DNA from: Coffea arabica
Lineage: Eukaryota > Streptophyta > Magnoliopsida > Gentianales > Rubiaceae
DNA: 64,000 nucleotides
Assembly: GCF_036785885.1 (NCBI RefSeq)
Contig: NC_092320.1
Span: 14,385,557-14,449,556, forward strand
Direction: 5' to 3'
The stretch's first letter is position 1, and every line of letters starts with the position of its first letter. Shown here piece after piece: positions 25,697-64,000 of this stretch. A program made the position numbers and the translations under genes. The notes under the pieces were generated by a model, which was not told the origin of the DNA, did not search any database, and worked only from the letters and a program-made list of their open reading frames with translations.

Positions 25697-25892
25697 AGGC
25701 TCAGATCTGTAAAAGGTGGAGGCAAAATGGAGGGAGACACCGCCATGGCTGCAAATTCCCAGTTACATATGCGGATGAGACCCATCTCATCCCACACGCC
25801 ATCTGGGTTGCCCAGCCAAGATACGGGCTCGAATTTACCTCCATGAATTTCGCCATCAATAACTCAAGAAAGGATTTTCATCGTCACTGCCC
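25697..25892 (-). ncRNA. Module B, unit m1 (C/D-box-like RNA)
   Basis: On the - strand the module runs from GGGCAGTGACGATG (box C slightly off consensus) to ACAGATCTGAGCC (box D). The block CCCGTATCTTGGCTGGGCAA and the block TTTGCAGCCATGGCGGTGTC are both intact, and CCCAG can pair with CTGGG inside the hairpin closed by TGGCTG/CAGCCA. Its module A partner lies upstream (on that strand) at 26089-26204. Confidence 0.65.
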
Positions 25893-26088
25893 GGAAATAT
25901 ACACAAACCTCAACGCCCAAATGCAAAAAGGCATCAGTAATTATGACTACACAGCAGAGCAGCAGCAGCAACAACAAAGAATTAAGGTTGGTGATGAAAC
26001 AAGCACTGCTATCTCAGCAGATCTTTCAGAAATAATCTCCAATCCAAACAGGCCTCGTTTGATAACATTTCCAGTTTCTGATTTCTGC

Positions 26089-26204
26089 AAAGGGATGTTA
26101 ATTTCTTTCTTTTTTCAAAAAGAATTGCCGAAATCATAGGCAGGAAAACAGAGAGGGGCAACAACCCTTTAGAAACTCCCCAGCTCTCTGCTGCCTCATT
26201 CATT
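26089..26204 (-). ncRNA. Module A, unit m1 (hairpin plus pseudoknot-like arm)
   Basis: Read on the - strand: AATGAGGCAGCAGAGAG...CTCTCTG...CTGCCTATGATTTC. AGGCAG pairs with CTGCCT and CAGAGAG with CTCTCTG, both perfect; this copy shows the hairpin best. The loop AAAGGGTTGTT is complementary to AACATCCCTTT downstream except for one position. No protein-coding capacity. Confidence 0.65.
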
Positions 26205-26293
26205 TTTCCTTCAGTTAATGGTGGCAGTGCAACCATCAGACTTCAATAAAAGTTCTCCAACTTTCATTTAAGCTGATTGATTGGGCAAATGAC

Positions 26294-27857
26294 GGTTACG
26301 TCTACGGTGGAAAGTTCACTTTTCTGCCCATAGTAGGCAGAAGCAATGCAACGAGGCCAATTGTGCCATGTGGGAACGCACAAAGAAGGACATCCGGGCA
26401 CCTAAGAAAACCGGTTGGGCCTGGATGAAAAACGTAATACATTTTAAAATCACAATAGAAGTTCTCTTAAAAATTTATTCATCCAATACTATATTTGATA
26501 AATTAAAATAGTTAATTAAATATTCTATTATAATATAAATAACTATATGTCATTGAGTTGATTGAATAATATTTTCTTTTTCTTTTTTTTTTTTGGTATT
26601 TCAACTAGTTGTCAATTAAGTTTCAATTGAAATAAATATTTTATAATTATTTAAATTATTCAATAAAATTATCAATTTAAGATGAACATAAATATAATAC
26701 ATTAAATTTTATTGTTGAAATATTTGATTTAATATAAAGGAAAGCCAAGAAGAAATAGCAAGAAATTTTTTAAAAATTCATGTGAACCCTCTATATTGGT
26801 AATCACCTTTACTTGTTATTATAATCACAATGCCTAACCATAACCAATTGAAACTCGTACGCACAAGTCATACAACAATTTGTGTTATACTGTTTACAAT
26901 TAAAGTTACTATACGCTCAAATTCAAATTCTCTTTTTTCCACTAAATTTTCTTTTATATATGATTTATGTGTTATTATTTATTTGTAATTAATTTAATGA
27001 AAAGATGCTCTTTAGGCTAAATGATATGTTTCGATAATGTGGATTACTTTTAAGGATTTTAATGAGATTTAGAACACATTTTTTATGAATTTAATCTAAT
27101 TCACATTTTATTTTATTTGAAATATAATTATTTAAAATATAAGGGACCATATTGAACAAATTTTCAAATATTAGAGACCAAAAAATATAAAGTCAAACTT
27201 TTGACTAATTCTTACTTGATTTTGACCGTTAGATATTGTAGTTTTCTATTAGTTGTCCTAAATTTGCCTAAAATAAAAAATTTGGGACCGTATTTATTTT
27301 GGTCAAAATATCAAGGGCTAGTTTAACTCATAGACCAAACGTTAGGGGACCAAAATTACACATATTTCTTTATTTTAATCATGTTTGATATCCCAACTTT
27401 TTCTTTTATATTTATGCTTCAATTATTTCAAATATTAAACTCAATTAAAATATAAAAACTACCACAATATTTGTTTTGACATGTATAAAATTTACTAAAT
27501 AATATTAAAAATTTTACCTATTTTTTGTTACAACAATTTCGTCTACCTTTTCGTACCTTTATTTTTCACGTTTTTTTGACATTCACTTTTTCGCTCTTCA
27601 CTTTTCATTGGGACCTGCATCTCGATTGGAGTGTTCACAAAATATTTTCTAAGTAATGGGTATTAGATAATGAACAAATTTTTAAGAGAACTTTTATCAT
27701 AATTTTAAAATGTATTGCATTATTTTATCCAAGCACAACCGGCGCTTTCTCCCGTGCCCGGTACATCATTTATCTGTCCGTCTTTGTGCGTCCCACAGAA
27801 CACAGTTGACCTCCTTGCATTGGGCAAAAAAGTGAACTTTCCACCGTAGGCGTAACC
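26294..27857. mobile_element. Mutator-like non-autonomous element, 1.56 kb, 10-bp target duplication
   Basis: Ends GGTTACGTCTACGGTGGAAA and TTTCCACCGTAGGCGTAACC belong to inverted repeats of about 36 bp. The direct repeat GGCAAATGAC flanks the element at 26284-26293 and 27858-27867; a 9-10 bp duplication is characteristic of Mutator-superfamily insertion. The core is AT-rich, without transposase, and is homologous in inverse orientation to the element at 40189-41703. Confidence 0.88.
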
Positions 27858-27929
27858 GGCAAATGACCAATGTAGTCGGTAGTCCTCCAACTTTAATGAA
27901 AGTTCCAGTTCTTGAGATTTCCGCCAAGG

Positions 27930-28005
27930 GCCTTCCTCTTTTTTTTTTTTTTTTTTTGACACCCCTTGGAAACTCCCCAGCCCCTGCTGCCTCATTTTTT
28001 ATTCG
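27930..28005 (-). ncRNA. Degenerate module A remnant
   Basis: On the - strand AATGAGGCAGCAGGGGCTGGGGAGTTTCC closely matches the 5' half of module A, but a poly-A tract follows instead of the TTGTTGCCCCTCTCTG strand and the pairing arm. No module B follows it. Probably a broken copy. Confidence 0.5.
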
Positions 28006-28354
28006 TGTATTCATTTTAATTTCAACCAGTGGAGAGCACGAATTCTGAGACAGTTTTAGGAAATCAAAACAAGAACAATTTCCCAAACACGGCCCAAGTC
28101 CAAACAAGATTTAACAAAACATACCACAGGACTGAAAGTGATATCACCACTACATTTTCATTCTACCTCAACTAAAAAGAGATGATGCATTCACTTGCGT
28201 AGCATCACAGAGAAAGAGCTCATGCACTGACCCAAGTAACATCAAAGAAAAATAGCTCAACCATACCACACAAACATAAATGTGATCATTTGATCGTCAA
28301 AAAACCTAAGCTTTCACTAGCTACTATCTAGCTTAAGTAGGCATATTACTCGAG

Positions 28355-28680
28355 TTCAGTCTTGTTTGGATTGCTCGTTTCTGTCGAAAAATATTGTATC
28401 GAAAAATATATTGAGTTTGTTTGGACAGGATATTATTTGGATGATTTATTTGAGATATTTACTGTAACATTTTTTATGATGTGATGTATGTGAGATAAAA
28501 AGGTGATTGGGATTTGTGAGAATAAATTTTGCAAACCAAATTATCTTTGTCCAAACAAACTCATTGTCATTTTCCGTGATTATATTTTCCAATCACCTTT
28601 TTCTCTCACATATATCAAATCGCTACAGTAATTTTTTCATAAAAAATGACGAAAAATGCAATCCAAACACAACCTTAGCT
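28355..28680. mobile_element. MITE with TTTGTTTGGA ends
   Basis: Contains TTTGTTTGGACAGGATATTA, ATTTACTGTAACA, GATGTGATGTATGTGAGATAAAAAGGTGATTGG, and an inverted second half ending AATGCAATCCAAACACAACC. The same core recurs at 46563-46728, 57428-57600 and 58076-58215, so this is a dispersed MITE family. Confidence 0.7.
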
Positions 28681-28917: not shown

Positions 28918-29116
28918 AGGCTCAGATCCGCATCAAGAGGAGGCAAAATGGAGGAAGACACCGCCATGGCTGCAAAAATTCCCAGGTGCATATGAGAATG
29001 AGAAAATCTCAGCTCACATGCCATCAGGGTTGCCCAGCCATGATACGGGTCGGATGAACTCCGTGCCCCAACAACAACAACAAACTCAAGAAAAGATTCC
29101 TGCAATCATCACAGCC
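28918..29116 (-). ncRNA. Module B, unit m2 (C/D-box-like RNA)
   Basis: On the - strand it starts AGGCTGTGATGATTG and ends GATCTGAGCCT, so the terminal stem AGGCT/AGCCT is perfect and both box C (GTGATGA) and box D (CTGA) fit consensus. The internal blocks CCCGTATCATGGCTGGGCAA and TTTGCAGCCATGGCGGTGTC are kept. A (GTT)n stretch lies in the variable arm. Best-preserved - strand copy. Confidence 0.7.
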
Positions 29117-29345
29117 TGAATATTACTGAAGTCTCAGAGCCTTAAAAGCAAAAGAAAAGGCTTTATAGATTATGGTTGTGGAATAATACGGCAACAGCGA
29201 CAGCATCAACGATATTCTAAAGCAAACAAGACAGATTTTTGAGAAATAACCCAAAACGGTCCTCGATTTCAAAACACAAACATCACCAGTTACCAAACGC
29301 ACCCGGGAAACAACATGGTTCTTTTCAGCATCTTGATTTTTCTGC

Positions 29346-29447
29346 AAAGGGCTGTTTAAGCATGTATTTTTGGGCAGGAAATCATCGGCAATACAGAGAG
29401 GGGCAACAACCCTTTAAGAACTCCCCGGCTCTCCGCAGCCTCATACA
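29346..29447 (-). ncRNA. Module A, unit m2
   Basis: On the - strand: ATGAGGCTGCGGAGAGCCGGGG, then AAAGGGTTGTTGCCCCTCTCTG, TTGCCGATGATTTC and, after a variable loop, AAACAGCCCTTT. AAAGGGTTGTT and AACAGCCCTTT form 11 pairs (one G-U). It lies about 230 bp upstream of module B m2 on the same strand. Confidence 0.65.
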
Positions 29448-29970
29448 TTTTTCTTGAGTTTTGGCTGAGGCCTGAAGCCCTCAGATCAGATTATGAGTGT
29501 GTTTGGATTTAAGATTATTTGGGAAACCATTTTCCGTTTTATTCACAGACAAGATCGAAGTGACCCACTTCTATCTTCTTCTTTTATTAGCTAATTAGTG
29601 CTGCAGCAGAGAGAGCTCGAATCACGAGTGGAAAGTAAAAAAAAAGGAAACAACATTAAAAAATAAAAAAGGGAGGAAAATCTGGAAAATGAGGATGGGA
29701 AGATTCAATATCCATTAAAAAAATTTGCAAATGGTGCATAAGTTATGGTTCAGGCAATAATTACTAAATTTATTCTTAAATGATTGAATAAGGCTCAAAG
29801 TGATGTGCCTTTAAAAAAAATTTTGCAAGTTGATAAACAAAACTATGCATCCATGTAAAAGTGTGCATTTTGATATACTTGACATCTACAATATACAGAT
29901 ACAAATTTGCACAAATAAGCATATGCGCATCAATACAAACATGCAATTTGGTGAATTATGTGTACACGTC

Positions 29971-30019
<49 letters not shown>

Positions 30020-30100: not shown

Positions 30101-30103
30101 TTA

Positions 30104-33014: not shown

Positions 33015-33141
33015 GGTGACTGGTGCACCGGTCCAAGACAATCGTGAAAGGGCAAAAACAGCCTCGACAGTAGGAGAGTTTCATAAACACCGGAGCCAGC
33101 TAATTTGTTTCGTCTCTGAGAACGAACTCAAGAAATGAACT

Positions 33142-33248
33142 GAGGCAGCACAGAGAAATAAAAAATGGGGGAATTCTCTGAGGGTTGTTGCCCACTCTCT
33201 GCATGCCAATGATTTCATTCAAATCGAAAGAAAAATTAACAACCCTTC
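33142..33248 (+). ncRNA. Module A, unit p1
   Basis: GAGGCAGCACAGAGA ... GAGGGTTGTTGCCCACTCTCTGCATGCCAATGATTTC ... TTAACAACCCTTC. The loop strand GGGTTGTT pairs with AACAACCC. First + strand unit; preceded by site II motifs. Confidence 0.62.
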
Positions 33249-33440
33249 TCAGTTTTTAAGTACTCGTGCATGTATTTATGTGTGTTTATGTATATATATA
33301 TATCTGTGTGTGATCTCTGGGGCGGTGGATCTCTGGTTATTGCTAATATGGAATACTGGCTTCTACTTCACATTTCCAACACCACCTTTACCAATCCAAT
33401 CTCCTTTTTTATCTCAGACTTAGCTCCTTTCCACTGTTAT

Positions 33441-33616
33441 AGGCTGTGACGATCGAATTCGATTGCTCTTGGGTTCATCTGGGCATTGAGGTTATTCGAC
33501 CCGCATCTTGGCGGGGCAACCCGGATGGCCTGTGGATTGATCTTGGGCAACTGTGGTTTTGCAGCCATGGCGGTGTCTCTCCTTCTTTGCCTGATTACAT
33601 CACGGATCTGAGCCTT
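33441..33616 (+). ncRNA. Module B, unit p1
   Basis: Starts AGGCTGTGACGAT (one change in box C) and ends GGATCTGAGCCTT; terminal stem AGGCT/AGCCT. CCCGCATCTTGGCGGGGCAA and TTTGCAGCCATGGCGGTGTC are present; at 176 nt it is among the shortest full copies, the shortening being in the arm tip of the hairpin. Confidence 0.65.
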
Positions 33617-44195: not shown

Positions 44196-44450
44196 AGGAA
44201 TTAGCTCAAACAGTGGGAGTGGATTCAATACATGCGTGTAATAGAGTGTGTTACACCCTATTCTTTCTCGATGCTCTAACTCTAAGGACTTGCCTGGTCA
44301 ATTTTGCTGTTGTAGCATCCGCACTGTATCGGTGTTCGTGCCCTTCTCCTTGGGGAAGAGACACCGCTAGCATAAATATGGTTCAGTGTTATGATAAAGT
44401 CTCAGCCTCCTGGGGCTTGAGACCTTAAAGAGTCGAAACTCAAGAAAAAT

Positions 44451-44576
44451 GAATGGATGAGGCAGCCAGAGGGGCCGGGGAGTTTTTCAAAGGGTTGTTG
44501 CCCCTCTCTGTTCTGCCGATGACTTCCAATTTTTGTTCTATATACAGAAAGAAAAAAGAAAATCAACAGCCCTTTC
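44451..44576 (+). ncRNA. Module A, unit p2
   Basis: GATGAGGCAGCCAGAGGGGCCGGGG, then AAAGGGTTGTTGCCCCTCTCTG, CTGCCGATGAC and AATCAACAGCCCTTT. AAAGGGTTGTTG and CAACAGCCCTTT give 12 pairs with one G-U. Confidence 0.66.
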
Positions 44577-44778
44577 CAAGCAGACAGACAGATACAGTAG
44601 TATTATTTCTTGAATTGTGCGTCTGGAAATGAAATGTGAACTGGGGACTTCGTTTGATTATCTCTGAAAGTGCTTGTCAAGAAGTCATCACATTTCATGA
44701 AAACTTTTCATTGTTGATGTGATCAACTTCGACAAAGCATTTTTCTTCATCAGGGCTTTGTTGCTTAGTGAAGGTTTC

Positions 44779-44987
44779 AGGCTGTGATGATAGAGTTATT
44801 TTCTTGAGTTGTTGGCGTGGAGTTGAATCCGACCCGTATCTTGGCTGGGCAACCCTGATGGCATGTGATCTGAGAGCGGGTGGGCTTCAATTAGCTCCTC
44901 CTTTCTCCTTCACATATGCAACTGGGAAATTGCAGCCATGGCGCTGTCGCCTTCTCTTTTGCCTCGTCTTGTTACAGATCTGAGCCT
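44779..44987 (+). ncRNA. Module B, unit p2
   Basis: AGGCTGTGATGAT at the start and ACAGATCTGAGCCT at the end give a perfect terminal stem and consensus boxes C and D. CCCGTATCTTGGCTGGGCAA is intact; the downstream block reads TTGCAGCCATGGCGCTGTC. 209 nt. Confidence 0.7.
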
Positions 44988-45173
44988 ACGTCAGTACTCA
45001 CCCAGTGTATGATGATGATGCTTTAGCTTCGTTCTTTAAATTTTTCATGAAAGATTTCCCCTGTTTAAATTCCTTAAATTTTCTAACCCTTTAGTATCTG
45101 TGTAGAAGAGAATGGCTCCACCAAAAAGCCTCTTTTTTTTTTTTTTTGACCAGAATGAACTCAGGGATGAATT

Positions 45174-45281
45174 GAGGCTGCAGAGAGAAAAATGGGGAAT
45201 TTTCTAAAGGGTTGTTGCCGTCTTTCTGCATGCCAATGATTTCATCAAAGAACAAAGAAAGAAAAAAATCAACAGCCCTTT
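45174..45281 (+). ncRNA. Module A, unit p3
   Basis: GAGGCTGCAGAGAGAAAAATGGGG, AAAGGGTTGTTGCCGTCTTTCTGC, ATGCCAATGATTTC and ATCAACAGCCCTTT. Loop and downstream arm complementary over 12 positions. Confidence 0.62.
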
Positions 45282-45435
45282 TTCAGCTCTGGTTTCTGAG
45301 ATTCTGAATACTCCGGCAGAGAAAGGTATCTACTATTTGTTTGTGCCCGCGCGTGTAAAAACGTGTCTCCACCGTCACCACCAGCGTGAATGGGTCCAGT
45401 CTTTCAGCTGGTTTTCGGGTCCCCTCCATTGTTAT

Positions 45436-45634
45436 AGGCTGTGAAGATCAGATTCTTTAATTCTTGAGTTCTTACTTCTTGTGGGCATTGGGGTGACACG
45501 ACCCGTATCTTGGCGGGGCAACATGGGCGCCTAGTAGATTGCTCATGGACCAATGTGTGGTTTTGCAGCCATGGCGGAGTCTGTCCCCCTCTGCCTGATT
45601 CTTTCACAGATGACAGATCTGAATTCTGAGCCTT
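45436..45634 (+). ncRNA. Module B, unit p3
   Basis: AGGCTGTGAAGAT (one change in box C). CCCGTATCTTGGCGGGGCAA and TTTGCAGCCATGGCGGAGTC are present. The 3' end carries a short duplication, with GATCTGA followed by a second CTGAGCCTT, so two candidate D boxes lie 9 nt apart. Confidence 0.6.
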
Positions 45635-48516: not shown

Positions 48517-49798
48517 TGGGGGTGTTTTTTAAATATTTTAAAGTACCAATATATGTGAACATTTTTTATTATAAGTATTAAGTGTTTTTAGGGGTGTTTT
48601 TAAAGGTGTTTTAGGAGAGGAAGGTGGGGCGACGAGATGGGGGAGGAGGAGAAGGAAGGAGGGAGAAAAAAAAAAAAGAGAGAGGATAGGGGTGGCGCAA
48701 CTGTGATGGGTGGTGGTAATGTGTGGAAGGAAAAAAAGTGGTATGATTGATTTTTTTTTTTTTAATTTTTTGTGTATTTGTAAGTTGTTTTTGAGATATT
48801 AGGTATTTTTGGAGTTGTTTTTTGTTTGTGTATTGTTTGGAAAAATTAGGATTATCAATGGGGTTGGGTATGTCCGAACTCAGCCTGTTCAGCCCGAAAA
48901 AGCTCACTAAATTTAAGCTTTAGTTGGTGTGGATAGAGTTTGGATCTAAATATTAGACTCGAACTAAATGTGAGCCGACCTTAGGTCATACTAGGCTTAG
49001 GTTTGATTAAAACCCGACTCATATATGAGTATAATTATATATGTAATAATATATATAATAATATCTATAATTTATAATTATCTATACTATATATAAAGGG
49101 AGGGAGGGGGGTTTGGGGTAAACAAAAATTTGTTACTTTATATACTTCCTAAACTATCCTTGATGGTGCGGGAATTTTTGGTATAAACAAAAGTCTATTT
49201 ATCTTTGATAACTACCCATTAACAATATGATTTTTTACCAAGTAATATGTATTTTTTTCATATTTTATTTTTTAACTCATTTAGTAAATCTTAATTTTAA
49301 TTAGCAACTACCAATTATGGTTATGAATAACTACCAAATAACTACTTTTTATAAATTTTATTTTGGTGAATTTTTTACATATGTATTTTCAAAATATAAA
49401 ACCAATTTTCTTGAAAATGATTTCAATTAATATACTCAAAATATTTCAAAAATATTTTTTCTATTAGTCTCACACACATTAATATGTGCCTTGAATACTA
49501 GTATATATTACGACATAAAATATTAATAATTTATATGTAAATTTGTATTAATTTATAATTATAATTATAGATTATATATAATTATGTATTTAATTATGAG
49601 TTTGGATCAAACCTGATTTGAACCCAAACTTCATATGATCATGTGAATTGATATTGAACCTTTTTAATTTCAGCTCAAAATCCAAAAGTTCATATAACTT
49701 GTGAGATGAGTTTGAACTTGCTGGATCCGATTCAGAAAAACCCGATTGACACCCCTAGGCAAAAAAACTAGCTTGTAAAAAGTAGTCCAATCCAAACG
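48517..49798. mobile_element. Transposon insertion truncating the DUF1644 copy, outer element
   Basis: Starts at TGGGGGTGTTTTTTAAATATT, similar in style to the AT-rich sequences at 22130-22495 and 37270-37470, and probably ends near CAATCCAAACGG. It contains a nested element at 48847-49757. The right boundary is uncertain. Confidence 0.4.
48847..49757. mobile_element. hAT-like non-autonomous element, nested
   Basis: Ends TAGGATTATCAATGGGGTTGG and CCCGATTGACACCCCTA are imperfect inverted repeats of the TAGGGGTGTCAAT type. Flanks GGAAAAAT and GGCAAAAA match at 6 of 8 positions, consistent with a worn 8-bp duplication. AT-rich core. Confidence 0.65.
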
Positions 49799-50036: not shown

Positions 50037-50067
50037 TCCACAAAGACTGAAAAAACTCAAGAGATGC

Positions 50068-50182
50068 GAATGAGGCAGCAGAGGGCCGGGGAGTTTTTAA
50101 AGGGTTGTTGCCCCCCTCTGTTCTTTTTTGGCCAATGATTTCCTTCCAAAAAGAGAAGGGGGGAAAATATGAACAACCCTTT
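50068..50182 (+). ncRNA. Module A, unit p4
   Basis: GAATGAGGCAGCAGAGGGCCGGGG, AAAGGGTTGTTGCCCCCCTCTG, GGCCAATGATTTCC and GAACAACCCTTT. AAAGGGTTGTT (50099-50109) and AACAACCCTTT (50172-50182) are fully Watson-Crick complementary; CAGAGGG pairs with CCCTCTG in the hairpin. Confidence 0.68.
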
Positions 50183-50423
50183 GCAGAACGAAAAGAAAAA
50201 CATTTCCCAATTCCTGCTGGAAGCATTTGATAATCTTGATATTCGTTGAGATTGAGGATGTTCTTGGAAGCTTAAATTATTGCCTTTTTGGTTTCTGCTT
50301 CTGCTTCTGTTACTCGATGCAATCTTCTTTGATCGTTCTCGACAAATGGCTTAATTATCAGCAGTTTACGAAAGCCTTCTGGTGTTTCGGTTTAGGGTTT
50401 AAGGTCGTGTTGGATATAGTTTT

Positions 50424-50635
50424 TGGCCGTGATGATAAAAATCTTTTCTTGAGTTTGTTCGTGGTGGGGCATGTGGAGTTTAAATCCAACCCGTATCTTG
50501 GCTGGGCAACCCGGATGGCATCTGAGCTGAAACGGGGGCATGTGTTCTTTCTCATTGACTTTTGCAACTGGGATTTTGCAGCCATGGCGGTGTTGTTGCT
50601 CCATTTTGCCTCATCCCACTACATATCTGAGCCTA
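50424..50635 (+). ncRNA. Module B, unit p4
   Basis: TGGCCGTGATGAT to TATCTGAGCCTA, 212 nt. CCCGTATCTTGGCTGGGCAA and TTTGCAGCCATGGCGGTGTT both intact; CCCGG of the first faces CTGGG upstream of the second. Confidence 0.68.
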
Positions 50636-51770
50636 GTTAAACTATCTATGGAAGTGATGCCTTGGTGTCTTTTTAAAATTCTCCGATGAAAGGATTGTCT
50701 GTCCGAATTATATCATTGCTAGATGCCTAGGTATAACATTTCTTTTTGTACTTTTGACTACTTTTGAATGTACCTCAACTAATCATGAATCAAGAAAAAC
50801 AAAAAACTAGCGTGTATTGGAGAAGGGAGTGTTAGTCTCTATTGGTTTTGCTATTGAGCTTGTTTATTGGAGAATTTCATGCATGGAAAAGTTCTTAAGA
50901 TCATAATTAGTTTTTGTTGTGCTTGAATCTTATTGTTGGAGAGCATCCTATAGAAGATTAAGTGACTATTAGTTGCTTCCCTATGTTACCTTTCTGAACG
51001 GAGCTTAGACAAGTCCACTTTTGTTTATTTTTCAGACGGCTTAAGATTAGGTAATTGCTTGTTCTTTAGCACCCTTGATTTTAATGGTCAACCTTTTTCA
51101 GGGCCTAACAAATCTAGTTTGCCACTGGATCTTGAATTATGATACTATAACTTAGTTTCCCTGTCAATTTTGCGCGAGCTTGGTTTGAAGATGTGGGTAA
51201 TTAGTAATAGTATGATTTACCATATGAGTTATGCCATGCCATGTGACAGAGTTAATGTAGTTTGTTGGGTTATTGATAAAAATCATTTGTTAGAACTTTT
51301 GGACTTATTTGCCTACCATTGAATGGTGAATCACTTTTTAGTAATGAGAGACTGCTGACCCATTTGCCTACCATCGCAAAATGTGAAAAGCAATACCATT
51401 ATCGCCAGTTTCTTGAGGCATTCTTGGATGGTTTTGTTATTTTATATGAATTTATGCAGGAGGGAATGCATTCTTCCTCAGAAGCGAAATAAACTCCAAG
51501 AATAAAAATGAGGTCTATTCATGATAAATATTACATAGATCTTCAAGTTTGTGGAATTTGTTGATTGCTTTGTAAGAATTTAATGGAAAAACCACTACTG
51601 TTCTTTGTAAGATTAGTGAAGGAAAATTTGGTCATAAATTTGGAGAGTTTACTTTTACATGGAAATGAACACCTTGAGAATAAATATTGGACCAGGAAGA
51701 AAAAGTTGGAAAGAGTACATGTGGTGCTGAAAGAAATCCAACTTTGATAAGACATTCAAAACTTAAGAGA
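50636..51770. other. Spacer between array units, no gene recognised
   Basis: T-rich sequence; nothing recognisable. Confidence 0.4.
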
Positions 51771-51893
51771 AATGAATGAGGTTGCTAGAGTGCTGGGAGA
51801 GTTTCTAAATGCTTGTTGCTTCCCTCTGTTTCTGCCAATGATTTTCAATTTTTTCTTTTTCAATTTTTTCTTTAAAAAAATTAACAGCCCTTT
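51771..51893 (+). ncRNA. Module A, unit p5 (diverged)
   Basis: AATGAATGAGGTTGCTAGAG, CTAAATGCTTGTTGCTTCCCTCTGTTTCTGCCAATGATTTTC and TTAACAGCCCTTTGG. The GGG of the loop strand has become TGC, weakening the pairing, so this copy may be decaying. Confidence 0.5.
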
Positions 51894-52062
51894 GGATGAC
51901 TGAGACAGAAACAGCAGTCTGTTTTGTAATGCTGATGCTTATGCCATATTCCTCTTTGCGAAGAATTTTGAAACGGCATGGTGGTATATGTATTTGATAA
52001 TCCCTTGTATTAATTGACAAGCTTTCTTTTGCTTGATCAGGTTTTAGGTTTCTGAAATGCTT

Positions 52063-52268
52063 GAGGATTTAATGATAAAAATCTATTCTGGTGCTTGTAA
52101 TGGGGTCTGGAGTTCAATCTGACCCATATCTTGGCTGGCAAACCGGATTGCAACTGAGCTGAGATGGGTTGGTTCTATTTGTCTAAATTCACTTATGCAA
52201 CTGGAATTTTGTAGCCATGGTGGTACTGACTCTACATTTTGCCTCTTCTTATTACAAGATCTGAGCCT
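52063..52268 (+). ncRNA. Module B, unit p5 (diverged)
   Basis: Box C region reads GAGGATTTAATGATA, off consensus; box D is ATCTGAGCCT. CCCATATCTTGGCTGGCAAA and TTTGTAGCCATGGTGGTACT show several changes in otherwise invariant positions, including loss of one G of CAGCCA. Likely decaying along with its module A. Confidence 0.5.
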
Positions 52269-55116: not shown

Positions 55117-55433
55117 CTGATGGTGTGTTATACAGTCCAACAATTTCATAACACAAAATATTAGCTTCTACAAATATTTACGTTAATCTAAATGGAGCAA
55201 AATGCTAGAATGGTGGCTTGGGTCTTTGTTAACTCCATATTTGGATTGGAGTATAATCTCAAATTCAAAGTCTGAATAAGGTGTACTAAAAGTAAATAAT
55301 GCAGTCTTTTTTGATTAGACAAACAAGCCCTTGTTCGAGGAAACCGCGCAACCCTTTTCACTCTGCTTGTATATGGTCCGCCCGCAATTCACACCTCAGT
55401 AAGAATAATACTACTGGAAGAATCAACTCAGAA

Positions 55434-55544
55434 GAATGAGGGCGCTGGGAGAGAGCTGGGGAGTTTGTAAGGGTGGTTGCCCCTCTCTCTGCATTTCCCC
55501 GATGATTTCTGTCAGACCCGCTAAAGTAAAAATCAACAGCCCTT
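55434..55544 (+). ncRNA. Module A, unit p6
   Basis: GAATGAGGGCGCTGGGAGAGAGCTGGGG, AAGGGTGGTTGCCCCTCTCTCTGC, CCCGATGATTTCT and ATCAACAGCCCTT. First unit of the GGTGGTTG subtype that fills 55-64 kb. Confidence 0.66.
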
Positions 55545-55569
55545 CGGAGAGAAGACGAAAGAATGCATT

Positions 55570-55667: not shown

Positions 55668-55859
55668 AAGGCTGTGATGATATTTCTCTTTCTTTCTGAG
55701 TTATAAATCGGGCATGGAGTTTACGGGTCCCGTAACTTGGCTGGGCAAACTCCTGATGGCATTATTTGAGATGGGTTCTCCATGCTAAAATGCACCTGGG
55801 TTTGCAGCCATGGCGGTGCTCCTCCCTCTTTGCCTGACCTTTTGACAGATCTGAGCCTT
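55668..55859 (+). ncRNA. Module B, unit p6
   Basis: AAGGCTGTGATGAT to ACAGATCTGAGCCTT: 6-bp terminal stem AAGGCT/AGCCTT, consensus boxes. GGGCAAAC in the 5' strand faces GGTTTGC in the 3' strand, a paired change relative to copies with GGCAACCC. 192 nt. Confidence 0.72.
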
Positions 55860-55894: not shown

Positions 55895-55968
55895 TGAGAA
55901 AACGAAGCAGCCGAGAGATGGGGTTTTGCTCCTTCTCTCTGCTAAGCTTATGATTTCTTCATTACCCG
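55895..55968 (+). ncRNA. Partial module A between units p6 and p7
   Basis: GAAGCAGCCGAGAGATGGGG, CTTCTCTCTGCTAAGC and TTATGATTTCTTCATTACCC match module A, but the AAGGGTGGTTG loop strand and the complementary arm are missing and no module B follows. Confidence 0.45.
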
Positions 55969-56061
55969 GTTCGAGGTTCCACCGGGTTGATATCCGGGTC
56001 GGTTTTTTATTGACTATGTTCTGAACTGCGAGCCCTGAAGAAGAAGGGATATTAGACAGAA

Positions 56062-56177
56062 AGGATGAGGTTGTGGAGAGAGTTTGAGGGAGTTTCTAAG
56101 GGTGGTTACCCCTCTTTCCACAATGCCGATGATTCTCAGCAATTTTTCGCCAAAAAAAAAAAAATCAACAGCCCTTG
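56062..56177 (+). ncRNA. Module A, unit p7
   Basis: GGATGAGGTTGTGGAGAGAG, TAAGGGTGGTTACCCCTCTTTCC, TGCCGATGATTCTC and ATCAACAGCCCTT. Box-like GATGATT is kept; the loop strand has one change (GTTA). Confidence 0.6.
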
Positions 56178-56306
56178 ACTGAAAAGAAAAGGCAATAAAA
56201 ATAGAAAAGCTATTGCGCGGTTTATACACCTAGTCATCGTCCTCGTTATGGTTATCCTGCTCATCCTCATCGGCCGTCATCAGCATCAGCAGGGGTCACT
56301 ACTCAT

Positions 56307-56514
56307 AAGGCTGTGATGGTACTAGAAATTTTGTTGTGTTGGAATCTGTGAATGGAGGCAACCGGACCCGTATGTTGGCTGGGCAAAACCCAGATGGCAT
56401 TATTTCAAAATGGGTTCTTTTCCTCCTCGTCACAAGCAACTGGGCTTTGCAGCCATGGTTGTCTCCTTCCTCCTTTTCCTAATTTATTTATTTTTTCTAT
56501 ATTATCTGAGCCTT
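56307..56514 (+). ncRNA. Module B, unit p7
   Basis: AAGGCTGTGATGGT to ATCTGAGCCTT with a 6-bp terminal stem. GCAAAACCCAG and CTGGGCTTTGC oppose each other with 10 of 11 positions paired, the clearest internal helix of the family. The block after CAGCCATGG is altered (TTGTCTCC). Confidence 0.67.
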
Positions 56515-56664
56515 ACTCTAGAAGTACTCTAACTCCATCGTTAGTGTGTGTTGTTTGAGATAGACATTTTACTTTGCAATTTTTATCTGGAAGCAAGCAT
56601 ATTGCTCTGGCATTATGGAAATCCTCAAAATGGTGGTTTATATATTACTGGTCGATAGCTCAGA

Positions 56665-56774
56665 GAATGAGGCAAACAGAGTGGTGGGATTTATTTTAGA
56701 AGGGTGGTTGCCCCTCTCTGTTTGAGCCTATGATTTCTTCATTAATTATCCAAAAATAAATACCAACAACCCTT
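56665..56774 (+). ncRNA. Module A, unit p8
   Basis: GAATGAGGCAAACAGAGTGGTGGG, AAGGGTGGTTGCCCCTCTCTG, GAGCCTATGATTTCTTC and CCAACAACCCTT. Confidence 0.63.
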
Positions 56775-56873
56775 AATTTCTGGTACTTACTTTTCAGCTT
56801 CTACTATTACTACTTCTAGCTGAACCAAAGACTGCGGATGTATTTTTCCATTGTTTGCTTTGCTAAGATGTTA

Positions 56874-57075
56874 AAGGCCGTGATGATATTTCTAGATGAG
56901 CTAGGCACTAAGGGATTGATGATATAAAGTGACCTGTATCTTGGTTGGGCAACCCGGACGGTATCATTTTGGGGGGTGTTTTGATGAATCACAAACTTTT
57001 CTTTGATGCAACCGGTGTTTTGCAGCCATGGCAGTGTCACAAACTCAATGCCTGATCAATTACAGACCTGAGCCT
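56874..57075 (+). ncRNA. Module B, unit p8
   Basis: AAGGCCGTGATGAT to ACAGACCTGAGCCT. CCTGTATCTTGGTTGGGCAA and TTTGCAGCCATGGCAGTGTC; CCCGG faces CCGGTG. The 5' T in TGGTTG still pairs (G-U) with CAGCCA. Confidence 0.66.
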
Positions 57076-57600: not shown

Positions 57601-57901
57601 TGATTGTTTTTCGGATGTTCTTGGAGGATTATTGTTACCTTTCCATAAATTTTAGTAAAGCAGAAAGTTTTTTGTTTTTTTTTTTTGGCCTCTGTTGCAA
57701 TGGGTAGACTTGGATATTTAGCTTCTTTTTTTACTCACTCAGTGGACTCAATATAAATAGTCTGAGTTCGAGCAAGTTGCCATCAATTCTGGATTCTGCA
57801 AATTTTAGGGGCTTCCATGTTGACTCCTATTTGCCCGAGTCTTTGAACCATGAATATAAGTGGGCATCAGGAGGCATTTCTCTCTCGACAGAAAGAATGA
57901 A

Positions 57902-58023
57902 GAATGAGGGTGCAGGGAGAGATTCTGGTGGAGTTTCCAAGGGTGGTTGCCCCTCTCTCTCTCTGCTTTTTTCCCAATGATTTCTCAGTCTTTGAACAAA
58001 AATAAAAATGAAAAATAGCCCTT
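57902..58023 (+). ncRNA. Module A, unit p9
   Basis: GAATGAGGGTGCAGGGAGAG, CAAGGGTGGTTGCCCCTCTCTCTCTCTGC, CCAATGATTTCTC and AAATAGCCCTT. The 3' arm has lost part of the CAAC half. Confidence 0.58.
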
Positions 58024-58075
58024 ATTAGAAACAGAAGAAAATGGAGTTATTCTATATGCTATAGCATCATTAATG

Positions 58076-58322: not shown

Positions 58323-58540
58323 TAGGTTGTGATGGTACTTCACTATTTGTTTTTGAGTTGTGAATATCAGGAAGGGAGCTAATTGGACTTGTATCTTTTT
58401 GTGGGGGTTGGGGGTGGGGGCAACCCTGATGGCATTTTTTGAGATGGGTTTTCCGGAGTCCATGACATGCAATTGGGTTTGCAGCCATGTTGGTTCCCAT
58501 TCCTCTTAGCCTGATTTTTACTGTGCATATCTGGGCCTTT
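58323..58540 (+). ncRNA. Module B, unit p9 (diverged)
   Basis: TAGGTTGTGATGGT to ATCTGGGCCTTT: box D carries a change (CTGG). The GTATCTT block is followed by a G-rich expansion (TTTGTGGGGGTTGGGGGTGG) before GGCAACCCTGATGGCA. TTTGCAGCCATG is kept. Probably losing function. Confidence 0.5.
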
Positions 58541-58606: not shown

Positions 58607-58612
<6 letters not shown>

Positions 58613-58684
58613 TGTGATTTAGTTGGCAGTAGGAACAAGTGGCTCTGCCATGGTGGGAATCTTTAGCTAGTAAATTTAGCTCAG

Positions 58685-58778
58685 AGAATGACGCAAATAG
58701 AGAGATGGGATTCCCTCATTGTTTTATGCCTATGATTTCTTCATTAATTAACCAAATTTAGAAACCAACTGTTCTTGA
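58685..58778 (+). ncRNA. Module A, unit p10 (degenerate)
   Basis: GAATGACGCAAATAGAGAGATGGGATT, then GCCTATGATTTCTTC and CCAACTGTTCTTG. The AAGGGTGGTTGCCCCTCTCTG strand is deleted, so neither the hairpin nor the pseudoknot-like pairing can form. Confidence 0.5.
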
Positions 58779-58792
58779 TTTCCAGTAATCAG

Positions 58793-58922: not shown

Positions 58923-59126
58923 GGGCTAGGATGATATTTGTAATGAGCTAGGAAAAAAAGGCATTGATTTTATAAATTGACCCATATCTTGGTAGGCAAC
59001 CTGGATGGCACAGTTATTACTTGGGTGTTTCTGTGTATTAGTTTCTTTCACTATAGCGCAACTAGTGATTTGCATCCATGGCGGTGTCACAAACTTAATA
59101 CTTGGTCAAATTCAGATCTGAGCCTT
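58923..59126 (+). ncRNA. Module B, unit p10
   Basis: GGGCTAGGATGATAT to TCAGATCTGAGCCTT. CCCATATCTTGGTAGGCAAC and TTTGCATCCATGGCGGTGTC; box C region changed (AGGATGAT). Partner module A is degenerate. Confidence 0.55.
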
Positions 59127-59410: not shown

Positions 59411-59536
59411 GAGGCCTTGGTCTAGTGGCTAAGGTTGAGGCCCTAGGAATTAGAAGTCCTGGGTTCAAATCCCCCTGTCCCCTCATGCTTCTTAAGTCCT
59501 GCCCCTTCCCTGCTGGAAAAAAATTAAAAAATAAAA
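59411..59536 (+). mobile_element. tRNA-derived SINE with pol III boxes A and B
   Basis: TTGGTCTAGTGGCT (59418-59431) fits box A and GGTTCAAATCC (59462-59472) fits box B with tRNA-like spacing. An A-rich tail follows at 59517-59536. No tRNA fold with an acceptor stem is present, so it is a SINE rather than a tRNA gene. Target duplication not clear. Confidence 0.75.
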
Positions 59537-60002
59537 GAAGTGGTGATTTTGGTTCAATATAGATTTTTCTACCTCTGTCGTTTTCAATGTAATTATTTAC
59601 AAGTCTGCATTCATTGTAGATGATTTGTTGTGTTTTGGTTGCTCTCTAGTGCTACTTGCATTAGGTGGATTTGATTTTTTGTGGGTTACTGGATATGAAC
59701 ATACATTTTTTAAGCTGTAATTATTCAATTTTTGGAATTTTGAAGTGTATTTTCCAAGGCTTCTGTCACTCCACCCAAGCTGTTGTAGCACAATCTGCAT
59801 TCTTTCATAATCAAAAGTTGAAGACTCAGGCGCAAGAGAAATAGGGATTTTCAATGGTGGTCAATTTCTCCCTAATCAGATTTTTCAGAGGCTGTGGTGT
59901 TACTCACTTCCTTCTAATGTAAGGAATGAATGAGGGTTATGATCGGGTTTGAACCTCCATGATAAAACAACCAGAGGACTGAAAACTAGGAGCTCCAAGA
60001 CT
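59537..60002. other. Spacer between array units p10 and p11
   Basis: T-rich sequence; no gene or repeat recognised. Confidence 0.4.
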
Positions 60003-60110
60003 GATTGAGGCATCAGAGAGATGTGGGATTTCTTCAAGCAGTGTTGCCTCTCTCTGTTTTTAGCCAATGATGTCTTCTTCTTCTTCTTCTTCAAAAGCCA
60101 ACAACCCTTC
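60003..60110 (+). ncRNA. Module A, unit p11
   Basis: GATTGAGGCATCAGAGAGATGTGGG, CAAGCAGTGTTGCCTCTCTCTG, TAGCCAATGATGTC and GCCAACAACCCTT. CAGAGAGA pairs with TCTCTCTG, but the loop strand has lost its GGG, so the long-range pairing is weak. (TTC)n fills the apical loop. Confidence 0.57.
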
Positions 60111-60285
60111 TGTTTAATTTAGTGTCCATCCTTCTCAGGGTTTAATTTCACTGATCACCCTTTTGTACTACTACTGCTAGCATTCACTGGAACCAAACAT
60201 GGCGTCCGACAACTTTGCAAAGTTTCTTGGGCCTAGTTTGGGAGTTTGAGAGAGAGAGAGAGATTTTGTATGGTCCCATAAAAAA

Positions 60286-60476
60286 TGGCTGTGATGATTT
60301 TACATCTCTGAATGGGAGCTGAGTTGTTTTTTTCTCCCTCAGGGCAATTGAGGTGAACCGACCCGCATCTTGGCAGGGCAACCCTGATGGCCTGCATGCA
60401 ACAGGGTTTTGCAGCCATGGCGGTGTTTCTCTACTTCTTTGCCCAAAGCCTAAAGTTTTTAAAAGATCTGAGCCCA
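60286..60476 (+). ncRNA. Module B, unit p11
   Basis: TGGCTGTGATGAT to AGATCTGAGCCCA: terminal stem TGGCT/AGCCCA. CCCGCATCTTGGCAGGGCAA and TTTGCAGCCATGGCGGTGTT intact; 191 nt with a short hairpin tip. Confidence 0.68.
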
Positions 60477-60583
60477 TTTTTCTCAAGGTTCACATCCTTA
60501 GCATGCCTTTCTGAAATTGTCCCTTTACTCATGTAGCCTCTAAGGGATGAGGCATTATACTTCTTTCAACTGAAAGATCGAAA

Positions 60584-60703
60584 GAATGATGGGGCAGAGA
60601 GAGTGTACTGTTGGGGCGAGTTTCTAAGGGTGGCTGCCCCTCTCTGCATTTCCCCCAATGATTTCTCAGTCCTCAAACAAGGAAGAAAGAATAAACCACC
60701 CTT
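60584..60703 (+). ncRNA. Module A, unit p12
   Basis: GAATGATGGGGCAGAGAGAG, AAGGGTGGCTGCCCCTCTCTGC, CCCCAATGATTTCTC and AAACCACCCTT. AAGGGTGG (60626-60633) is fully complementary to CCACCCTT (60696-60703), a compensated variant of the usual arm. Confidence 0.66.
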
Positions 60704-60762
60704 GGAAAACGAAAAAGAAAGGAATACACAAATATCGTATTATTTGTTCTGGTTCTGGTACT

Positions 60763-60906
60763 GTAACTGTGATGCAATTCACACGTGCTTTGTGATGCAA
60801 TCCGGATGGTATGTTTTTATGGGTTATCCCTTCTCACATGCAACTCGATTTGCAGCCATTGCGGAACCTTTCCCCCTTTACCCATTTCTTTTATAAAACT
60901 GAGCCT
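60763..60906 (+). ncRNA. Module B, unit p12 (internally deleted)
   Basis: ACTGTGATGCA to AACTGAGCC, only 144 nt. The CCCGTATCTTGGCTGGGCAA block is missing; the copy resumes at GCAATCCGGATGGTATG and keeps TTTGCAGCCATTGCGG. Boxes C and D remain recognisable, but the terminal stem is poor. Likely non-functional. Confidence 0.5.
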
Positions 60907-60984
60907 CGTTTTTTGTGTGTGTTCGAATCTTGTAGAAATCCTCCTTGAATAGTGGTACCTGTCACTGGTAATTTTTAGCTCCAA

Positions 60985-61084
60985 GAATGAGGCATCAGGG
61001 AGATGGGATTTCTTTGAAGGGTCGTTGCCCCTCTCTGTTTCGCCTGTGATTTCTTCATTACCCAATGCAAAACCAACGGCCCTT
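60985..61084 (+). ncRNA. Module A, unit p13
   Basis: GAATGAGGCATCAGGGAGATGGG, GAAGGGTCGTTGCCCCTCTCTG, CGCCTGTGATTTCTTC and CCAACGGCCCTT. AAGGGTCGTTG (61017-61027) pairs with CAACGGCCCTT (61074-61084) over all 11 positions with one G-U, through a T-to-C and A-to-G double change. AGGC also pairs with GCCT. Confidence 0.7.
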
Positions 61085-61444
61085 CATTACTAGTATCTAG
61101 TAGTAGTAGTGATAATAATAATAATCAGACTTCAGAATGCAGCTGATATTGAGCTTGTTCTTGTATGCTTTAGATTTTGTAAATGCTTATGGAAAGTGGC
61201 ACTAGAGAATAATCATAATCAGCTGAGGCTACTCATTGGTGGATTTTGCATTTCAGATTTTTTGGCCATTAACAAATGTAAAATGCAGATGCAAAAAAAC
61301 ATTATAAAAAATGATTATCCAAAATTAGAATCTATGATCAGGTGAAATAATAGACTGAGAACAAGCCTGTTGTTTCTGCTGCTGCTGGTGTTGTTGTTTT
61401 TGCTCTTTGATGAATCCAAAACAGAAAGAGGGTAGAAGAAAGTA

Positions 61445-61647
61445 AAGGCTGTGATGATGTTTCTTATGAGCAATGGAATCAGGCATTGATTGATGAGAAG
61501 TTGACCCGCATCTTGGTAGGGCAACTCAGATGGCATACTGTTTCTATGGGAGTGGTTGATGACTGATTATGTTCCCTTTCAGGTAACCGGTGATTTGCAG
61601 CCATGGCGGTGTCACATACTCAATGCCTGATGTACAAATCTGAGCCT
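61445..61647 (+). ncRNA. Module B, unit p13
   Basis: AAGGCTGTGATGATG to AAATCTGAGCCT. CCCGCATCTTGGTAGGGCAA and TTTGCAGCCATGGCGGTGTC intact. 203 nt; its module A lies about 360 bp upstream, one of the longer spacers. Confidence 0.7.
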
Positions 61648-61949: not shown

Positions 61950-62325
61950 ACACCAACACTGAGTTTTACTGGAAAGGGTGCTATTCTGCAAGTTTGTCAA
62001 GTGATTGATGCTGTCCTTGATATTAGGTTCAAGGAAGGAGGGGTGCCAATTTGATGGCGCTGGAGGTGGTTTGATAATCAGATCCAACTTGTATTTGAGT
62101 TGGCTCAGCATACAAGGGAGAATTTGTTAGGTGTATCTATGGGCTACTCCAGGTCTTGTTTGTAGGCAGCAGGTGCCCAACAACTACTCCCGTATTACAG
62201 TGCCTGTTGGTCGAGCTGCTCTTGGCCGTATCATAAGCGTCATTGGAGAAGCTATTGATGATTAGAGGTGAAATTAAAACTGAAATTATTTGCCAATCTG
62301 ATGTTAGGCCTCAGCTTTCGCTGGT
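61950..62325 (+). pseudogene. Mitochondrial ATP synthase beta-subunit pseudogene fragment
   Basis: Three-frame reading shows, in order, [59 protein letters not shown] and RGEIKTEI. These follow the N-terminal region of F1-ATPase beta ([21 protein letters not shown] ... [25 protein letters not shown]). In-frame stops (for example TGA at 62053) and frameshifts break it, no introns interrupt it, and the rest of the gene including the P-loop is absent. A truncated retrocopy is likely. Confidence 0.85.
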
Positions 62326-63477
62326 CAGTCTAGTGAACCAGAAATTCTTGTTACTTGAACTAAGGTTTCACAATTCTGCAGTTCTGCGCAGTTCAACTTG
62401 TCCTTGCACGTGTGTGATGCTATTCATGGCTCTTGTGATTTTGTGCTCTGTTAGAGAGTTTTCTAGTTTCTACTGTGCTAAATACTTCAACTGTAGTTGA
62501 TATTTTCATTTTGGGTTTTCTTATTTCTGTCGTCTTATTGCAGATATCTGTGTTAAGTGTCTGTAGAATTGTTCTTTCTAAAACCGGTGTATTTCTTATT
62601 GAAATTTCTAGTGCAAATATGTAGGGCTAGTGTTGCTGCACCACACTCTTCTGATCATATTCTTGTTATTTATGGCTAGGTAAAATTATCTAGAATCGGA
62701 TCAGTTTTAGTCTCTCCATGTACATCTTCAAGGAGATCAGTTTCTCTCTTCCCAGCTTCCTGCAAGGAATCATATATCCTATTTCCATTTGTCCACTTTC
62801 TCTGGATAGGCAGAGCTTATACTACATGGATCTTGGGACGATACTGAAGGGACCTTGGATGCCCCTCTCTTTGGCAGCAACATCTTCTCTTCAACATCAT
62901 GCAAAAATGCTACCACAGCTTCCCAGTTCCCAGAGCCATGAAAATGAAAATGAATCCTGTCGAGAAAGAAAATAGAAAGGAAGCATTGGCCCAGTTGCAA
63001 AAACTAACCAACCCGGCCAAAAATTTATTACAAACTTCGCCAGGAACTTGTTTCCTTTGTGATTCTGGTTTCTCAAGTCCAAGCCCAGCCAAGCACTAAT
63101 TAGAAGCATAGGTGAAATTTTTTTTTTTTTTTTTTAATCAAAATGCACATAAAAGGCATATACTCATAAAAATTTAAATCATTGTATTATACTTTTAACT
63201 AATCAATGTGCAAGGCAAATTTTATTTTTTGCCTTTTAATCCCTGAAAAGCAAAGTGTTGTTCCAAGCCAGTAACTGAGATGGGCTGCACCAGTAGATAA
63301 AGACGACTTGCCCAAAGCTCAGGAAACCAGGCAACAATGACTAGGTCAACCCAAATCCGACGAGTAAATTGGGAAAGTATTAAACGTATTTCCAGAGCAC
63401 ATTAACATCATTGTCACCCATACAAATATTACGCAGGAATGACTGGAAAAAGTGAAAACTGGGAGCTCCGAGACTGG
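62326..63477. other. Spacer between pseudogene and unit p14
   Basis: Mixed sequence, including short frames around 62718-63100 on both strands that resemble no family; a poly-T run at 63119-63136. No gene supported. Confidence 0.4.
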
Positions 63478-63593
63478 AATGAGGCGAGCAGGGAGACGGG
63501 ATTTCTTCAAGGGTGGTTGCCCCTCTCTGCTTCTTAGCCTGTGATTTCTTTCTCTATCACGTTACAGCAAAACCAGCATCCCTTCATCGTTTG
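63478..63593 (+). ncRNA. Module A, unit p14
   Basis: GAATGAGGCGAGCAGGGAGACGGG, CAAGGGTGGTTGCCCCTCTCTGC, TTAGCCTGTGATTTC and CCAGCATCCCTT. Hairpin strands intact; the long-range arm has two mismatches. Confidence 0.6.
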
Positions 63594-63735
63594 AGAGAAG
63601 GGTTAATTACACTGAGCGCCTCCTTTTTTTTCGACTGAGTCGAACCAAACGGGCCCTTGTATTCATATTCCCTGGAAAACTTCCCAGGAGCTTTAGTTTG
63701 CGAGTTTAGGAAAGAAAAGAAAAGAAAGCATCAAA

Positions 63736-63946
63736 AAGGCTGTGATGATTACTTTTCATTCTCAGAATCGGAGCAAGTTTTTCTTTTGCAGGGTAATTTG
63801 AGGTGAACCGACCCGTATCTTGGCAGGGCAACCCTGATGGCCTGAAAATGGGGGATTCTTTCCCGTCTCCCTTTTGCATGCAACTGGGTTTTTGCAGCCA
63901 TGGCGGTGTTTCTCTCCCTCTTTTGCTCTGATGAAAGATCTGAGCC
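63736..63946 (+). ncRNA. Module B, unit p14
   Basis: AAGGCTGTGATGAT to AGATCTGAGCCA. CCCGTATCTTGGCAGGGCAA, GCAACTGGGT and TTTGCAGCCATGGCGGTGTT are all intact; 211 nt. One of the best + strand copies. Confidence 0.72.
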
Positions 63947-63957
63947 ATTTTCTTTGA

Positions 63958-64000
63958 GGCGAAATGAGGTAATCAGAGAGATTGGGATTTTCTTGAATTA
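63958..64000 (+). ncRNA. Start of another module A at the right edge
   Basis: GCGAAATGAGGTAATCAGAGAG followed by ATTGGGATTTTCTTGAA matches the 5' half of module A (compare p11). The array therefore continues beyond the window. Confidence 0.6.

Follow-up and report, generated by a model that had tools for sequence, protein, structure and literature searches.

Tandem array of two-module units

We analysed a 64,000-nt stretch of the Coffea arabica genome (hereafter the window; C11:14385557-14449556 of an assembly of 1.198 Gb in 131 contigs, the one genome that all results cover), whose second half carries a tandem array of units composed of a module A followed by a module B. We regard the array as a genuine gene family for a structured non-coding RNA that has been amplified locally. 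An earlier note on this DNA had described 16 such units at 25.7-63.9 kb, two on the minus and fourteen on the plus strand, and iterated nhmmer searches of the whole window returned the same units, with A 5' of B in 16 of 16. At E<0.01 the search yielded 17 A and 16 B matches, all of them in 25.7-64 kb, whereas 1-25 kb had none; the minus strand units lie at 29.5-28.9 kb and 26.2-25.7 kb, and one of the 17 A matches is a remnant (55904-55966). In U12 the match covered only the second half of module A and the rest was extended by eye. Covariance models, a check suggested in the earlier note, recovered all 16 A and all 16 B modules of the window; below these ranked the remnant of A (E 0.015), three matches to A in antisense (0.12-0.46) and two more to B (0.12, 0.49), of which all but the remnant are taken as chance. 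The models did not report a stretch at 27930-28000 on the minus strand (ATGAGGCAGCAGGGGCTGGGGAGTTTCC) that on visual inspection looks like a degenerate module A.

Module B proper starts at GGCUGUGAUGAU, ends with CUGAGCC and measures 173-213 nt; it is longer than the core first described. The distance from the end of A to the start of B is 27-363 nt in the window units. In pairwise local alignments of the 120 unit pairs, scored against shuffled sequences and counted at z>5, module A aligned in 95% and module B in 99% of the pairs, the A-B spacer in 6%, the upstream flank in 4% and the downstream flank in 9%, as expected from the claim that blocks within the modules are kept and their surroundings are not. 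The further statement that spacers differ completely is limited to distant units, because closely related copies at other places in the genome still have alignable spacers. As for common transposable-element termini or target-site duplications among the array units, what was observed is the alignability of the flanks in only 4% (upstream) and 9% (downstream) of pairs; capture and retrocopying were seen in dispersed copies (see below). By tree, the units fall into U01/02/04/06/07, U03/05, U10/12/15 with U13 and U16 near, and weakly U08/09/11/14.

A short-peptide gene starting at the conserved GCAGCCATGG could be considered, since the ATG is present in 15 of the 16 window units (ATGG in 14, ATGT in U11; U14 reads ATT) and many of the frames start with MAV. 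However, the spacing between the conserved ATG and the conserved block that follows it varies by 1-2 nt from unit to unit (alignment A1) and therefore no protein frame is kept, in agreement with the earlier note; the peptides diverge at once and the ATG lies within the helical region of B. We consider such a gene hardly credible.

Structure of the modules

RNAalifold, applied to the 16 window copies of module B, returned a long hairpin (P3) in which 4 of 16 pairs are doubly changed in some unit; the ends of B and P2 were added to this structure by hand. In the window rows 84.7% of 411 cells were paired and 8 pairs had double changes, each value matched by 1 of 500 shuffles, and pairing fell from 84.7% to 29-44% when the partner was slid. 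For an extended set, 24 of 48 sources were searched, giving 53 matches, of which 34 (18 from outside the window) remained after removal of rows with at least 88% identity and 32 after two cut rows were dropped. Over 26 pairs and 816 cells, these 32 non-redundant rows were 85.8% paired, with 24 doubly changed cells in 13 of the 26 pairs (0 of 1000 shuffles as high for either measure). The 16 non-window rows, which still include the partner copies L009/L022, L043/L044 and L041/L042, were 86.3% paired, and 9 of their pairs held 16 doubly changed cells (1 and 0 of 1000 shuffles as high, respectively). Helices P2 and P3 carry the covariation, P1 is nearly invariant and without signal, and neither the P3 base nor P4 gives a covariation signal in the rows from outside the window. 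When cognate arms of the window rows were compared with arms swapped between units (20,000 permutations for P2), the p value was printed as 0.0000 for P2, and was 0.006 for the top helix, 0.04 for P3, 0.08 for the P3 base and 0.94 for P1; a control pairing of the 5' stretch of B with the stretch past the ATG did no better than swapped arms (p 0.85). Judged from the aligned copies, the B helices covary, also outside the window, and the data support a predicted fold in which B forms one long hairpin, made up of helices P1-P4, and a kink-turn of box C/D-like type closes it.

Module A is supported as a putative hairpin (S1) on a kink-turn, with a possible pseudoknot (S2) between the apical loop and the tail. 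In the window rows, S2 included, 83.8% of 359 cells were paired (15 of 500 shuffles as high; 40-62% when slid), and the covariation score was matched by 3 of 500 shuffles. Out of 49 A matches, 31 were used in the extended set, 15 of them from outside the window, among these two transposon-borne copies (L007, L008); the canonical stem and S1 were paired in 84.4% of 390 cells over the 31 rows, and 7 pairs held 12 doubly changed cells (0 of 1000 shuffles as high). The swapped-arm test in the window rows gave p 0.007 for S1. The S2 helix is paired in 88.9% of cells and hardly varies (swapped-arm p=0.03, window rows), and the sequence 5' of A, paired as a control with the A loop, did no better than swapped arms (p 0.99).

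We propose that each module carries a kink-turn, of the form GGC-UGU-GA-U-GAU/AUC-U-GA-GCC in B and GAA-U-GA-GGC/GCC-NAU-GA-U-UUC in A. Defined as three canonical pairs, both GA and at least two of three pairs beyond, the predicted motif is present in 13 of 16 B copies in the window and 11 of 16 outside (two cut rows dropped), and in 12 of 16 and 10 of 15 A copies, respectively. With exact 3+3 bp stems, it was found in 12/16 A and 11/16 B, compared with 4.5% and 3.3% of shuffles and with 6.5% (A) and 6.1% (B) of random segments from 1-24 kb; with the U.U added, the counts were 10/16 A and 9/16 B, the corresponding values being 0.41% (A) and 0.28% (B) for shuffles and 0.67% (A) and 0.33% (B) for random segments. 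Compensatory changes within the kink-turns (e.g. GAU/GUC in U13, GGA/UCU in U09) are better evidence than these counts, because the copies are homologous and not independent events. The earlier interpretation is borne out in part: a structured RNA is supported by the covariation of B and the kink-turn motifs in both modules, and the family is absent from Rfam at gathering scores (see below).

Copies across the genome and a probable fossil transcript

An 18-base core searched with at most one mismatch occurred at 72 places (55 forward, 17 reverse), taken as sequence matches that were not each checked for a unit, compared with none for the reversed control; they cluster at C11 14.411-14.498 Mb and C12 13.247-13.369 Mb, with the others scattered. 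The array, located correctly within the window by the earlier note, continues past it and covers about 86 kb in all; C12 carries a partner array, whose collinear segments match the window at 92.5-97.0%. The module A begun at the window edge is complete in the genome (locus L020, 1575-1674). Further scattered copies gave at least 40 matches with U06 and at least 12 with U15 as the query. Out of 13 further loci, all had a B match and 9 an A match, A preceding B in those 9. Copies L048 and L050-L053 (on C5, C10, C9, C11 and C17) form a near-identical A-B subgroup that by eye is alike also 5' of A, over the length inspected. Retroposition of the copies on C19, C20 and C6 was considered and dropped, as by eye they have common sequence upstream of A.

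Four copies, L007 (C14), L008 (C13), L012 (C7) and L040 (C22), represent an array fragment (window ~55543-56518/56761) and share flanks of repeated motifs (GTGCCCAGTCAGCACGTCC); by these flanks, they look like captures by a DNA transposon. A different origin is suggested for a copy of the U16 region found as 684 nt on C1 (L010, C1:3415790-3418807) and 685 nt on C2 (L011, C2:21068052-21071069), which spans A, B and the next A. On C1 it starts at window position 63461, 17 nt 5' of module A's AAUGAGGC, and on C2 the BLAST match starts at 63478. It ends in an A-run where the source reads GTTGTTG, and the sequences on its two sides, AACTAGGCATGA and AACTAYGCATGA (T in the C1 copy, C in the C2 copy), agree at 11 of 12 positions, although the first two A of the flank repeat may belong to the A-tail. 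Compared with U16, these copies differ by 3.3-3.8% in B, 9.8-12.0% in A and 11.2% in the spacer. The copy looks like a single event of retroposition, of the long interspersed nuclear element type, of a polyadenylated RNA; together, A-tail and target-site duplication suggest a polyadenylated transcript, this one fossil from a single event being what the transcription argument rests on. The GUAUCUU/UUUGCAG blocks were also considered as splice sites and the idea was dropped, as 3 of 16 units read GC there.

Comparison with known RNA families

In accordance with the earlier note, which had matched the modules to no known RNA family, Rfam 15 at gathering scores gave no match over the whole window. 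At E<=5, eight sub-threshold hits were obtained in 44.3-64 kb, no family twice and none convincing. ARAGORN called no transfer RNA (tRNA) in the window, a pattern search of viral contigs gave no matches and six conserved strings were found in none of the paper texts searched. The pattern search of genome contigs gave one bacterial match, taken as chance. A possible miR169 site in CUUGGCUG of B was considered and dropped, as the stretch varies among units.

The ends of B resemble those of a box C/D small nucleolar RNA (snoRNA), with RUGAUGA and CUGA boxes, a closing stem and the elements of its kink-turn (canonical stem, 3-nt bulge, tandem G.A, U.U and second stem), whereas the size of B, the long covarying hairpin between the boxes and the lack of an Rfam match set it apart. 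A conserved guide upstream of box D was not found in B: in the 32 rows, right-justified, the most frequent base reached 0.34-0.81 per column compared with 0.91-0.97 in CUGA, a test that covers conserved guides and leaves room for unit-specific ones, rRNA targets not having been searched. By the tests made, the family is snoRNA-like in its ends and probably does not belong to the guide class. Module A differs from an H/ACA snoRNA, which has two hairpins with H and ACA boxes, in being a single hairpin by inspection; the ACA found in the A tail is part of the S2 arm and is not constant from unit to unit. In the U3 snoRNA 3' domain, a C'/D-type kink-turn likewise closes a large folded domain; U3 gave no Rfam match at gathering. 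The GCC-NAU-GA/GA-GGC of A corresponds to the 15.5K site of the U4 small nuclear RNA; in the U4 5' stem-loop the hairpin is on the opposite side of the kink-turn, and there was no Rfam match. As in SAM-I-type riboswitches, the kink-turn of A could fold the hairpin loop back to a distant strand; unlike there, S2 is without independent support, and again Rfam gave no match.

One could regard the units as polycistronic orphan snoRNA genes, in which A (~130 nt) and B (~200 nt) would be cut from a common precursor as separate box C/D-like small nucleolar ribonucleoproteins (snoRNPs), the polyadenylated RNA seen as a retrocopy being this precursor. Box C, box D and the closing stem of B, tight packing of the units (e.g. 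U08-U10, U13-U15) and spacers free in length and sequence would fit; polycistronic precursors are usual for plant snoRNAs according to PMC5122169, and plant snoRNA precursors with polyadenylation are described in PMC4140647. The 173-213 nt of B, the unconserved stretch next to box D, the single hairpin of A with its D-like strand before the C-like one and the lack of any Rfam snoRNA above threshold argue against this view, which we regard as doubtful.

A known angiosperm long non-coding RNA (lncRNA) family, CR20/GUT15, could alternatively have been amplified here; its short conserved open reading frame (ORF) and conserved structured region would be a point in favour. CR20/GUT15 is a conserved plant lncRNA (PMC10226578; compared by description only) and is also treated in PMC4140647, PMC3269984, PMC9753222 and PMC4370693. 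However, a tRNA-like GUT15 product has been reported, by a title cited in PMC10226578, and ARAGORN found no tRNA in the window; we consider the identity unlikely. The part of PMC12218528 considered here describes 16 plant motifs, derived from 130 genomes and mostly of modest covariation, of which Viridi-trans and Brassica-trans are likewise structured plant RNAs whose gene context is not consistent. Viridi-trans is in many cases located close to snoRNAs; the motif differs in its long hairpin with an H-box-like tail, and Brassica-trans is found in Brassicaceae only. Judged by the descriptions in that part of the paper, none of the 16 motifs is the A/B family.

Interpretation and weight of the evidence

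With a probability of about 0.5, we read the family as a tandemly amplified plant non-coding RNA of a kink-turn ribonucleoprotein (RNP), snoRNA-like and serving as a scaffold rather than as a methylation guide. A polyadenylated transcript would start 17 nt 5' of the A core, as deduced from the one retrocopy, and would run through A, spacer and B. The A/B RNA probably binds kink-turn proteins, and two kink-turns per RNA point to SNU13/15.5K, of the L7Ae family, as a candidate partner, which would bind each kink-turn, bend the RNA and nucleate a snoRNP-like particle; in A, the bend may bring the apical loop into pseudoknot pairing with the tail 3' of it. The lack of conservation beside box D is the reason for preferring the scaffold role to that of a guide. 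More tentatively, and at clearly less than even odds, this may be an undescribed class of plant RNP RNA, polyadenylated and tandem, with two kink-turn domains, the 5' one pseudoknot-capable, which would use snoRNP core proteins for a non-guide task.

Several results weigh against this reading. The alignments A3-A6 were fitted to the structure, and the shuffle tests are generous because the copies are relatives from one genome. In the window rows of module A, two of five measures, double-change pairs (192 of 500 shuffles as high) and pair types (282 of 500), were not above shuffles, and the 15 non-window rows reached only 33 and 78 of 1000; S2 pairing was equalled in 174 of 1000 shuffles for all rows and in 872 of 1000 outside the window. 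Single-sequence folding gave a mean z of -0.07 for A, -1.22 for B and -0.91 for the reverse complement of B, and folding energy was rejected as evidence, being too weak. Upstream of 47 of the 49 A matches (two were too short) no consistent promoter motif was found, with TGGGCY in 10 of 47 compared with 9% of background segments, TATA in 10 compared with 26%, one telo box and no upstream sequence element (USE). Between C11 and C12, substitutions amounted to 38/2166 in A (1.75%), 39/2995 in B (1.30%), 41/2743 in the spacer (1.49%) and 286/11385 elsewhere (2.51%), so that B and A differ from elsewhere (p 3e-5 and 0.04) and the modules do not differ from the A-B spacer (p 0.49, 0.57). Even the most conserved columns were changed at 22/1664 (1.32%) compared with 327/14128 (2.31%) outside the modules (p 0.008), and U01 and its copies on C19, C20 and C6 differ by 13-20%, equally in the modules and in the spacer.

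Other pairs gave a mixed picture: L006 and L005 differ by 0.7% in A, 0.5% in B, 2.3% in the spacer and 2.3-3.5% in the flanks, U09 and the C14 copy by 0-2% throughout, and homoeologue changes are heterogeneous by unit (a post hoc look, not used as a test). The selection on RNA structure claimed in the earlier note is supported at the level of deep paralogues; homoeologues are mildly constrained, and the dispersed U01-type copies show, in modules and spacer alike, the even divergence that the note had named as speaking against its claim. On the long time scale constraint is clear, and on the recent one it is uneven. A candidate explanation would be that copies are redundant; many copies are probably redundant, some of them decaying.

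The same observations bear on the possibility of a decaying mobile element or pseudogene array, whose conservation would reflect shared ancestry and gene conversion and not RNA function. The evenly diverging U01-type copies and mild homoeologue constraint fit it, as do the dispersed copies, four of them (C7, C13, C14, C22) apparently inside a transposon with its own repeats and one a retrocopy. Yet 14 consecutive units lie on one strand, flanks and spacers are mostly unalignable while the blocks are kept, B has compensatory changes, and the retrocopy and transposon-borne copies look secondary to the array. We consider this origin improbable and retain the reading as an RNP scaffold RNA. In plants, few structured RNAs supported by covariation are easily found (PMC12218528). 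The many diverged copies in one genome provide natural variation for structure tests. Moreover, the retrocopy gives a likely transcript start and an A-tail from DNA alone.

Further features of the window

Modules A and B in window coordinates; "full" denotes a predicted kink-turn (k-turn) as defined in the text.
Feature	Position	Strand	Remark
U01 module A	26080..26220	-	full k-turn
U01 module B	25698..25891	-	full k-turn
U02 module A	29337..29465	-	full by rule (2/3 outer pairs)
U02 module B	28919..29116	-	full k-turn
U03 module A	33119..33257	+	not full: k-turn outer stem 1/3
U03 module B	33442..33614	+	full k-turn
U04 module A	44436..44584	+	full k-turn
U04 module B	44780..44986	+	full k-turn
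U05 module A	45151..45290	+	not full: outer stem 1/3
U05 module B	45437..45632	+	full by rule (2/3)
U06 module A	50049..50191	+	full k-turn
U06 module B	50425..50633	+	full k-turn
U07 module A	51755..51902	+	full k-turn; apical loop altered
U07 module B	52065..52267	+	k-turn broken
U08 module A	55415..55554	+	full k-turn
U08 module B	55670..55857	+	full k-turn
Module A remnant without own B	55904..55966	+	nhmmer 1.8e-7; covariance model E 0.015
U09 module A	56044..56186	+	full k-turn
U09 module B	56309..56512	+	full k-turn
U10 module A	56646..56784	+	full k-turn
U10 module B	56876..57074	+	full by rule (2/3)
U11 module A	57883..58033	+	full k-turn
U11 module B	58325..58537	+	not full: box D GA -> GG
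U12 module A	58665..58786	+	hairpin partly deleted; not full
U12 module B	58924..59124	+	full k-turn
U13 module A	59984..60119	+	full k-turn with compensatory change
U13 module B	60287..60474	+	full k-turn
U14 module A	60565..60713	+	not full: canonical stem 2/3
U14 module B	60730..60905	+	box C lost; k-turn broken
U15 module A	60966..61094	+	full k-turn
U15 module B	61447..61646	+	full k-turn; long P2 helix
U16 module A	63458..63594	+	transcript start inferred at 63461 from retrocopy
U16 module B	63738..63946	+	full k-turn
Next module A, start only (window edge)	63965..64000	+	locus L020 1575-1674

Besides the array, the window contains an ORF of 239 codons for an ABC-transporter ATPase (11584-12303, plus strand) and two DUF1644 ORFs on the plus strand (23662-24150 and, inside the array, 48160-48558), 82% alike over 141 nt. 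Inverted copies of a repeat of ~1.2 kb, probably a mobile element, lie at 26294-27473 and 40592-41703, their pieces 79-91% alike. A tRNA-like stretch at 59412-59480 has A- and B-box-like motifs and is perhaps a short interspersed nuclear element, with no ARAGORN call. Finally, a repeat of ~94 nt resembling a miniature inverted-repeat transposable element is present in four copies, at 28428, 32035, 46562 and 58079 (63-94% to the reference copy).

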